From: Aggregatilinea lenta
Lineage (GTDB): Bacteria > Chloroflexota > Anaerolineae > Aggregatilineales > Aggregatilineaceae
Reading direction: 5' to 3'
Assembly (NCBI RefSeq): GCF_003569045.1
Contig: NZ_BFCB01000003.1
Coordinates: forward strand, 1,240,001 to 1,304,000
Length of the DNA stretch: 64,000 nt
Position 1 is the first letter of the stretch. Each line of letters begins with the position of its first letter. The position numbers and the translations under genes were made by a program. Under the pieces are notes generated by a model, which saw nothing but the letters and a program-made list of their open reading frames with translations, had not been told where the DNA came from and did no database searches. Below, one piece after another: positions 1 to 47,034 of the stretch.

Positions 1-287
1 TCGCCAGTCGCGTCGGCAATACAGAGCGTAATATGGTCATGGCCGAACTCTACACCCACGACATAGCCAGCCTCAGGATTGATGCTCAATGCAACCGAAG
101 GCCTCCCGCGCCCGGCATAAGGTTCGCTGAGACGGTCTTCGGTCACATAGTTTCGCTCGCGCAGGTCGCCGACCAGACGAGCAATTGTAGCAGCGCTCAA
201 CTGCGTGAGGTCGCCCAGATCAGTTCGCGTAATCTCAGGCTGACGGTGGATATGTTGAAGCACAAGGAGATGATTGGCCGATAACAT
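1..287 (-). CDS. ROK-family transcriptional regulator, N-terminal part (cut by window edge)
   Basis: The reading frame runs from an ATG at 287 off the left edge, so only about 95 residues are visible. They begin MLSANHLLVLQHIHRQPEIT and form a winged helix-turn-helix (about residues 5-60), followed by the wing GRGRPSVAL and the first strands of the ROK ATPase fold (GYVVGVEFG). This is the standard N-terminus of NagC/XylR-type ROK repressors, which bind DNA and a sugar ligand. Its own promoter lies just upstream at 326-354 with a palindrome across the -10, suggesting autoregulation (inference). The target genes lie outside the window. Confidence 0.85.
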   Translation of the reverse strand, partial: MLSANHLLVLQHIHRQPEITRTDLGDLTQLSAATIARLVGDLRERNYVTEDRLSEPYAGRGRPSVALSINPEAGYVVGVEFGHDHITLCIADATG

Positions 288-325
288 GTGAACACCAGGG
301 TGGTATCTGGAGGGCTAATAATTTC

Positions 326-354
326 ATCTTACCGGTAAATCGACCTTTAGTCAA
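326..354 (-). promoter_or_regulatory. Sigma-70-type promoter with palindromic operator for the ROK gene
   Basis: Read on the minus strand: TTGACT, a 17-base spacer, then TAAGAT, about 40 bases upstream of the ATG at 287. The perfect 10-base palindrome TTACCGGTAA (329-338) covers the upstream half of the -10 box, a classic repressor position. Both are seen directly; autorepression is inferred. Confidence 0.6.
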
Positions 355-43315: not shown

Positions 43316-43968
43316 TTAGTTGTCGGCGACCAGTCGCGGATCTACGTTCTTGACGATGCAGCCGTCACGCACTTCGACGACGTGCGGAACCTGGCCCGCC
43401 AGATCGCGGTCATGCGTCACCACGACAATCGTGGTACCTTGCGCGACCAGTTCCTCGAACAGGGCAAACATGAGTCCCGCCGAGACCGTGTCGAGATTGC
43501 CTGTCGGCTCATCGCCGACGATCAACTGCGGCTCGTTCGCCAGGGCGCGGGCGATGGCAGCGCGTTGCTGCTGCCCGCCCGAAATCTGGCTGGGGTACTT
43601 GTTTGCCACGTCCGGTAGATCGACCCGCTCGAGCAGTTCCATCGCGCGCTGGCGGCGCGTTCCCCTGTAAGTGCCCACGTAGTTCATCGGCATCATGACG
43701 TTCTCCACGATGGTCAGGGTCGGCAGCAGTTGGAAGAACTGGAAGACTACGCCGACATTGCGACCGCGCCACTTGGCGATCCGGTTTTCGCTCATGTGAG
43801 TCAGGCGTTCGTTGGCGACGCGCACTTCGCCTTCGGTCGGGCGGTCGATGCCCGTGATCATGTTAATGAGCGTGCTCTTGCCACTGCCGGATGGCCCGAC
43901 GATGGAGACGAACTCTCCCGCTCCGACCTGGAAGTCGATGCCCTTCAGCACTTCCAACGCCCCCACGA
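43316..43968 (-). pseudogene. MacB/LolD-type ABC ATPase missing its 5' end
   Basis: From [19 protein letters not shown] onward this is a clear ABC ATPase: Walker [12 protein letters not shown], signature [15 protein letters not shown], Walker [13 protein letters not shown], switch VVTHDRDL. These variants fit the MacB/LolD group that powers lipoprotein or peptide export. Homology stops near 43968, where transposase-like sequence on the other strand begins. The first ~25 residues, including the base-stacking aromatic and the original start, are gone. No permease partner remains nearby, so it is probably inactive. Confidence 0.7.
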
Positions 43969-44179
43969 AGAGCGCCTGGAAACGGCGATCATCCTCAACG
44001 AGCGCCGCCTGCGCCGTGTGTTGCAAGAGTACATCGAGTACTACGATTCCCGGCGGCCCCATCAAGGACTTGGACAGGACAGTCCAATTGACATGCTCCC
44101 GGCTTCACAAGAGGGCGCGGTGCGTTATCGAAATGTGTTGGGTGACATCATTCGGGATTACTACCGCGAGGCCGCTTAG
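43969..44179 (+). mobile_element. Transposase (integrase-core) C-terminal remnant
   Basis: The plus-strand frame reads [22 protein letters not shown] followed by [10 protein letters not shown], the end of a DDE integrase core as in IS3/IS481-like transposases, and stops at 44179. Nothing of the upstream transposase is present, so the element is a fragment. It directly adjoins the broken end of the ABC ATPase, suggesting insertion followed by deletion. Terminal inverted repeats were not recognised. The 44180-44378 stretch is otherwise featureless. Confidence 0.7.
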
Positions 44180-46237: not shown

Positions 46238-46765
46238 TCAGCCTAAACGTTCCTCGCACCGATCATAGTACCCGCAGGCAGCGCAGACGCGCGGATTGGC
46301 GTGGCTCCGATGCACCTCCACCTTGCGTCTCAGCCGCCGCATATCGTCGAGCACGTTCGCCAGAAGTTGTTCGTAATCGGGCGTGAAGTCCACCTCAAAC
46401 GACCTGCCGGACGCCTCAAACAGGATGATGCCATACGGGGGCCGGATGCCCGTGTTCTCCTCGACGAGCACGCAGTAGGCAATGAGCTGCATCACCTGAC
46501 TCCAGTACGGCGTGCTCGGCGTGCGGCCCGTTTTGACCTCAACTGGAATATACGCGTCCCCATTCCAGAAGACATGGTCGGGGCGGCCTGTGAGGTGATA
46601 GCGCTGTGAGTAGAGCGTCTTCTCCAGCCGCGCTACCGTGTCCTGATATACCAGCTCACCGGAGGGGATTCCCTGCTGCGCCCGGCGTCGCTCAAGTCGC
46701 CGTTGGTATGCCACCAGCAGGAGCAGCAAAGCGACCAGGGCGACTAGAACCGGTCCGGCGCTCAC
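46238..46765 (-). CDS. Cas4-like PD-(D/E)XK nuclease, C-terminal half as separate membrane protein
   Basis: 175 residues from a GTG at 46765 whose codon overlaps the stop of the preceding gene (GTGA). One membrane helix spans ~5-20, followed by a basic segment. The nuclease core shows GRPD (Asp63), VEVK (Glu76, Lys78) and QLIAYCVLVEE (Gln motif). The C-terminus carries Cys161, Cys164 and Cys170 (VCAACGYYDRC), three of the four ligands of a Cas4/AddB-type iron-sulfur cluster. The N-terminal Cys and His of the fold are encoded by the preceding gene, so the two products probably form one composite nuclease. No cas genes or CRISPR are nearby. Confidence 0.75.
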   Translation of the reverse strand: MSAGPVLVALVALLLLLVAYQRRLERRRAQQGIPSGELVYQDTVARLEKTLYSQRYHLTGRPDHVFWNGDAYIPVEVKTGRTPSTPYWSQVMQLIAYCVLVEENTGIRPPYGIILFEASGRSFEVDFTPDYEQLLANVLDDMRRLRRKVEVHRSHANPRVCAACGYYDRCEERLG

Positions 46766-47034
46766 AACAGCCCCAGCGTGAGGCCCAACACGAGCACCAC
46801 AATAGTCATAACCAGCAGCCAAAGCAGTATTCGTATGAGCGCTTGCAGGCGTTCAAGCGCCCGCACCTCGCCTGCGAAGCGTTCATGCCGCCGCGTGCCT
46901 TGTTCCAGCGCCTCGAGATGGCTGCTCTCCTCGCCGTGGAGGCTGTACCACCACGAACGCTCGCAGTAGAGAAAGCGGCCAATCTCACTGGCGGAGATCG
47001 GCTTCCCCCGGCCTCGGTGCTGTTTGGCGTCCAT
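46762..47034 (-). CDS. Cas4-like nuclease, N-terminal half as separate membrane protein
   Basis: 90 residues, ATG at 47034. It begins with the Cas4-type opening ISASEIGRFLYCERSWWY (first cluster ligand Cys24) and EQGTRRHERF (active-site-type His50), then ends in a membrane helix (~66-90, LIRILLWLLVMTIVVLVLG). It lacks the Asp/Glu/Lys residues, which are in the overlapping downstream gene. Together the two would form a membrane hairpin between the halves of a Cas4 fold. A 4-base stop/start overlap argues for coupled translation rather than a random frameshift. Confidence 0.7.
   Translation of the reverse strand: MDAKQHRGRGKPISASEIGRFLYCERSWWYSLHGEESSHLEALEQGTRRHERFAGEVRALERLQALIRILLWLLVMTIVVLVLGLTLGLL

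Follow-up and report, generated by a model that had tools for sequence, protein, structure and literature searches.

Are two small overlapping genes in the genome of Aggregatilinea lenta the halves of one nuclease, or the remains of a gene that has been broken? They lie in a stretch of 64,000 nucleotides, referred to here as the window. An earlier note on this DNA had described their products as a Cas4-like nuclease split into two membrane-anchored subunits, which would have to share an iron-sulfur cluster and an active site.

The gene pair and its relation to Cas4

Both open reading frames (ORFs) and the GTGA overlap between them were found on the minus strand where the earlier note had placed them, and the residue numbers that it gave were correct for the Cys and His of chain N and for the Asp, Glu, Lys and three Cys of chain C (Table 1). 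Hydropathy bears out its further claim that a single membrane helix ends chain N and another opens chain C, with mean values of 2.92 for residues 69-87 of chain N and 2.62 for residues 1-19 of chain C. An ORF on the plus strand (43730-44179), some 2 kb downstream of the two genes, has a C-terminal part that resembles a transposase or integrase-core remnant; it is overlapped on the opposite strand by an ABC transporter ATPase ORF (43316-44065).

Table 1. Features of the cas4N-cas4C locus, numbered from the first nucleotide of the window.
Feature	Position	Strand	Description
cas4N (chain N)	46762..47034	-	ATG start, 90 aa; Cys24, W28, G46, His50; C-terminal membrane helix
cas4C (chain C)	46238..46765	-	GTG start, 175 aa; N-terminal membrane helix; D63/E76/K78, Q93xxxY97, Cys161/164/170
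GTGA overlap	46762..46765	-	TGA stop of cas4N and GTG start of cas4C
Membrane helix of chain N, residues 69-87	46774..46830	-	predicted cytoplasm to outside (positive-inside pattern)
Membrane helix of chain C, residues 1-19	46709..46765	-	predicted outside to cytoplasm (positive-inside pattern)

With the NCBIfam cas4 model TIGR00372 (cut-off 65) chain C reaches 69.6 bits, covering positions 58-179 of 180, and with PF01930 (cut-off 22.7), for which it is the only match in the genome, it reaches 48.5 bits. Chain N aligns with positions 2-44 of TIGR00372 (E 0.0018), alone under the cut-off. The two chains thus cover complementary parts of a single Cas4 model, a result well beyond chance that supports the earlier note in reading them as halves of one Cas4-type enzyme. 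When profiles were compared with all PDB sequences, the best match of both chains was 8d3l_I, a Cas4: residues 102-201 for chain C (E 2e-6) and residues 4-50 for chain N (E 0.015). A model of the window's chain C on its own (pLDDT 92.2) gave Cas4 proteins as the top PDB structure matches.

The residues that characterize Cas4 are all present, distributed over the pair. The Asp, Glu and Lys of the PD-(D/E)XK core and the QxxxY motif are on chain C, where D63, E76, K78, Q93 and Y97 are invariant in alignment A4. The RecB-type His that is expected upstream of the core corresponds to His50, yet it is carried by chain N. In Sulfolobus Sso0001, a solo-Cas4 with single-stranded DNA 5'-3' exonuclease activity, the cluster is bound by four Cys, one of them N-terminal and three C-terminal, and the protein is not soluble if any of the four is missing (PMC3466216). 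The same arrangement of one plus three is provided here by C24 of chain N, the predicted fourth Fe-S ligand, together with C161, C164 and C170 of chain C. Cys24 is found in 117 of 118 N chains, and D63, E76, K78 and the three Cys of chain C are near-invariant among relatives. Directly after the QxxxY motif (AYC98), chain C has a further Cys, Cys98. Although not among the known cluster ligands of Cas4, it shows no variation in alignments A4 and A7.

Where the pair departs from the family is in the number of polypeptides, since everything that Cas4 carries in one chain is divided between two, which are unlinked in some complete genomes. Like solo-Cas4 genes it is located outside cas loci, and it does not adjoin cas1 or cas2 as a CAS-Cas4 gene would.

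Distribution of the split form and its single-chain relatives

The class-wide search covered 396 Anaerolineae genomes, in which each half was sought separately. Chain C was found in 261 and chain N in 264; 255 genomes have both halves, 6 have only C, 9 have only N and 126 have neither, although these genomes are related by descent, so that the counts of co-occurrence are not independent events and a Fisher value drawn from them would overstate the probability. Occurrence of either half alone, which the earlier note had regarded as evidence against its proposal, is therefore rare. Chain C without chain N was observed in four fairly complete genomes (G102, G285, G293, G329), all of them fragmented. 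Outside Anaerolineae, 56 more Chloroflexota genomes contain chain C, and 48 of these also contain chain N; a sensitive local search revealed chain N in three more, and it was absent from all 10 such genomes that lack chain C. A scan of 84,980 species yielded 80 named loci, nearly all from Chloroflexota, among them Anaerolineae, Thermoflexus, Anaerolinea thermophila and Leptolinea. These loci comprise 62 that are split with chain N in the locus, 4 that encode a single chain and 14 with no chain N in the stretch examined.

The distance between the halves varies. Positions were listed for both in 98 genomes: the genes are adjacent in 60, separated by 0.6-5 kb in 23 and placed on different contigs in 15. 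An overlapping or abutting pair is found also in homologues of the same order, and in some loci another gene, for example an L,D-transpeptidase-like one, stands between the halves. Four single-contig genomes keep both halves despite a separation of some 390-710 kb (G276, 434 kb; G344, 411 kb; G283, 387 kb; G426, 709 kb). The two-piece form is the normal state of the enzyme in Chloroflexota and recurs in several classes, a breadth that the earlier note, confined to one locus, did not see.

These data bear directly on the idea that the pair is a single gene that has decayed or undergone a frameshift, or the product of a sequencing error, which the earlier note had named as a possible refutation. 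The overlap of only four bases is compatible with it, and one genome (G028) does have a broken N chain. However, 111 other loci show the same two-ORF layout; in many of them the ORFs are spaced by a positive gap, have another gene between them or lie at separate places, and conserved residues are found in both chains. Phylum-wide recurrence led us to reject this explanation, which can be virtually discounted.

One membrane helix is predicted in 111 of 111 N chains and in 147 of 148 C chains. Within the 15 residues flanking the helix, N chains have on average 3.5 Lys and Arg before it and 0.5 after it, and C chains have 0.4 before and 3.7 after; the segments on the outer side have a median length of 3 residues. 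By the positive-inside rule, this pattern places the soluble parts of both chains in the cytoplasm. The break between the chains would then coincide with the outer loop of a helical hairpin.

A single-chain homologue with such a transmembrane hairpin, which the earlier note suggested looking for, was found in two Chloroflexota genomes (G053, locus L033; G457, locus L269), where two helices form a hairpin at the split point. Four archaeal loci (L176, L188, L214 and L232) encode one chain of about 335-350 residues with 3-4 predicted membrane helices; archaeal-type Kae1 and triosephosphate isomerase genes adjoin L176. In these proteins the helix bundle separates the helix that carries the His from the core, and all motif residues are kept. 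Our alignment placed the N-chain helices on the fourth archaeal helix, the details of the membrane part being uncertain. As modelled by AlphaFold (pLDDT 85.5, pTM 0.79), the L214 protein superimposes on the Cas4 structure 7mi4_A with Z 20.2 and an rmsd of 2.4 A for 179 residues, over the model range 2..334. In this model, then, the parts flanking the membrane bundle form one Cas4 fold. Directly upstream of the archaeal gene in three of the four loci is a gene for a lamin-tail-domain and phospholipase-D-like (LTD-PLD) protein, which is probably exported (L176:3552-5522, L188:3290-5413, L214:3307-5286).

Loss of catalytic residues provides a further link between the chains. Among loci where both chains could be aligned, 98 have both His50 of chain N and Glu76 of chain C, 8 have neither, and in 1 the two residues disagree. 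In the N chain of this last locus (L031, G028:C24:461500-481000) an indel seems to disrupt the sequence beyond about residue 33. The losses are spread over two families or more (f8 and f3) and thus represent few events, and they leave the Cys residues in place. Joint disappearance of His50 and Glu76 is as expected if both serve one active site. The resulting proteins are apparently dead forms that retain the cluster ligands. Glu76 and His50 are lost and the four Cys kept in L032, L034, L035, L036, L038 (single chain, no membrane helix), L033, L037, L039 and L040; such loci encode apparent pseudonucleases, some of which are also without a membrane helix.

The same residues allow us to weigh the alternative that chain C is self-sufficient, holding a cluster with its three Cys and Cys98, or a degenerate cluster, while chain N, derived from an old N-terminal part, acts separately as a regulator or anchor. 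The best argument for it is the invariance of Cys98, a possible fourth ligand that would make chain N dispensable, and the few genomes with C but no N point the same way. Yet chain N keeps precisely those residues that serve Cas4 as ligand and in the active site (C24, G46 and H50), and it loses His50 when chain C loses Glu76 while retaining C24, which fits a place for His50 in the active site of C. Moreover, the archaeal single chains carry both Cys20 and the equivalent of Cys98. We consider a self-sufficient chain C improbable.

Genomic context and the CRISPR question

In many relatives the gene order is ssb, DUF3467, TRAX-like gene, cas4N, cas4C, followed by genes that, from their sequences, we take to be hisS, nadK and recN. 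Of the 48 loci with sufficient sequence, 34 have a TRAX-like gene that ends no more than 400 nt before cas4N and usually overlaps it or is at most 20 nt away; SSB is encoded farther upstream in 20 of 29 loci. Where the halves are separated, chain N can remain beside the TRAX-like gene (L154, L159, L163). The TRAX-like protein is homologous to AfTrax (E 3e-28 in the PDB profile search), and the Pfam Translin model alone misses most of these proteins. Like the breadth of the split and the loss of the active site in some lineages, this association went unseen in the earlier note.

A TRAX/C3PO-like protein is widespread in Anaerolineae, being encoded beside ssb, often with a DUF3467 gene, in 44 of 61 relatives (loci include L075, G000:C1:746501-760500, and L029, L030, L031, L033, L040, L117 and L119). 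This is far more than carry the pair, and we rejected the TRAX-like protein as an obligate partner. In the window's own genome the ssb/TRAX-like cluster (L075) is on contig C1, and the pair is on C3 among unrelated genes, so that the pathway link comes from the relatives.

The earlier note had remarked on the absence of CRISPR genes nearby. Indeed, there is no cas gene in the window neighbourhood of the pair, and the nearest one found, cas1 (G000:C3:1559134), although on the same contig, is about 272 kb away. A CRISPR locus of this genome (L245, G000:C3:1552001-1570000) contains repeat arrays, cas1, a reverse-transcriptase-like gene and type III-like effector genes, and no cas4. The pair could in principle trim prespacers at the membrane for CRISPR adaptation, acting in trans with Cas1, given that this genome combines cas1, a reverse transcriptase and type III-like genes with no other Cas4-family gene. 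A first small sample, in which 19 of 20 pair-bearing genomes had cas1, suggested a strong association, which was weakened class-wide: in raw counts not corrected for kinship, cas1 is present in 151 of 261 Anaerolineae genomes with chain C (58%) and in 43 of 135 without it (32%). The remaining 110 of the 261 have no cas1 match, including the single-contig genomes G426 and G297, which makes a part in CRISPR unlikely as the main role, although some additional use there is conceivable. In addition, none of the neighbourhoods examined places the pair within a cas locus, and it is a near-universal single-copy feature in a housekeeping context. Of the functions considered here, adaptation strikes us as very unlikely.

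A membrane tether that faces the cytoplasm would also suit an enzyme that degrades or converts incoming DNA, from uptake or phage entry, and the position of the single-chain gene immediately after an LTD-PLD gene in three of the four archaeal loci agrees with such a role. On the other hand, no competence gene adjoins the pair, and ComEC is present in 56 of 61 relatives, with or without the pair, a comparison that has no power. A role of this kind is unlikely, less so than one in adaptation.

A probable two-subunit membrane Cas4 and known nucleases

We conclude that the pair is probably a two-subunit, membrane-tethered nuclease of the solo-Cas4 type. The architecture is strongly supported by sequence, and from it we infer physical association of the chains, a shared cluster, nuclease activity, a substrate and a cellular role. 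Each chain would span the membrane once, the two helices making a hairpin whose tiny outer loop has been cut. Both soluble parts would lie in the cytoplasm and fold together into one Cas4 domain, so that the chains would meet through their helices as well as through this domain. One iron-sulfur cluster would be held jointly by Cys24 of chain N and Cys161, Cys164 and Cys170 of chain C, and His50, as the RecB-type His, would complete the active site to which chain C contributes Asp63, Glu76 and Lys78. The likely reaction would be metal-dependent trimming of the ends of single-stranded DNA, or possibly RNA, at the inner face of the membrane. The cellular role is the weakest step; we tentatively propose housekeeping nucleic-acid processing or repair, not CRISPR, with SSB and the TRAX-like protein acting in that pathway too.

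With Cas4 and solo-Cas4 (TIGR00372, PF01930, COG1468; Sso0001; the Cas4 of 8d3l and the Cas4/Cas1 of 7mi4) the pair shares the PD-(D/E)XK core, QxxxY, the RecB-type His, the 1+3 Cys, the fold and a location outside cas loci. It differs from solo-Cas4 in being encoded as two chains with a membrane helix each, in the link to SSB and the TRAX-like protein, and in having lineages without an active site. The archaeal Cas4-like proteins have the same motifs and the same point of membrane insertion, whereas they consist of one chain with a larger number of helices and mostly have the LTD-PLD gene upstream. AddB, Exo5, Dna2 and MGME1 have a related PD-(D/E)XK fold, as judged from fold matches, but are soluble single chains, some of them fused to a helicase or another domain. 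AddB, Exo5 and Dna2 carry a four-Cys cluster. AfTrax and archaeal C3PO (3zc0, 3zc1) are homologous to the upstream TRAX-like neighbour and not to the pair; the Asp that distinguishes 3zc1 from 3zc0 is Glu in the TRAX-like protein.

A monophyletic solo-Cas4 group in many Chloroflexi was reported by Hudaiberdiev et al. 2017 (PMC5704561), where all Cas4 proteins are said to keep the catalytic motifs and four Cys. This group may correspond to the C chain of the pair, and the main text describes no split, N-terminal partner or membrane helix (PMC5704561). In the literature searched we did not find a Cas4 that is split, membrane-anchored or linked to translin, an absence that is not proof of novelty, and the split arrangement seems so far undescribed. 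By model score, chain C would be named "CRISPR-associated protein Cas4" and chain N would be left as a small hypothetical protein; the enzyme is thus probably mis-annotated throughout the phylum.

In its widest form our proposal is that of an ancestral, widespread two-subunit membrane Fe-S PD-(D/E)XK nuclease of several Chloroflexota classes, acting with SSB and a TRAX/C3PO-like protein and serving as a non-catalytic scaffold in some lineages; we rate its chances as a little short of even. Nature offers variants for comparison: split, single chain with a hairpin, single chain with a membrane bundle, soluble, and catalytically dead. If the proposal is true, an iron-sulfur cluster and a nuclease active site are assembled from two chains. 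The function of solo-Cas4 is unsettled, and the layout of the pair says where it works, at the inner membrane face, and with whom it may work, namely SSB and the TRAX-like protein.
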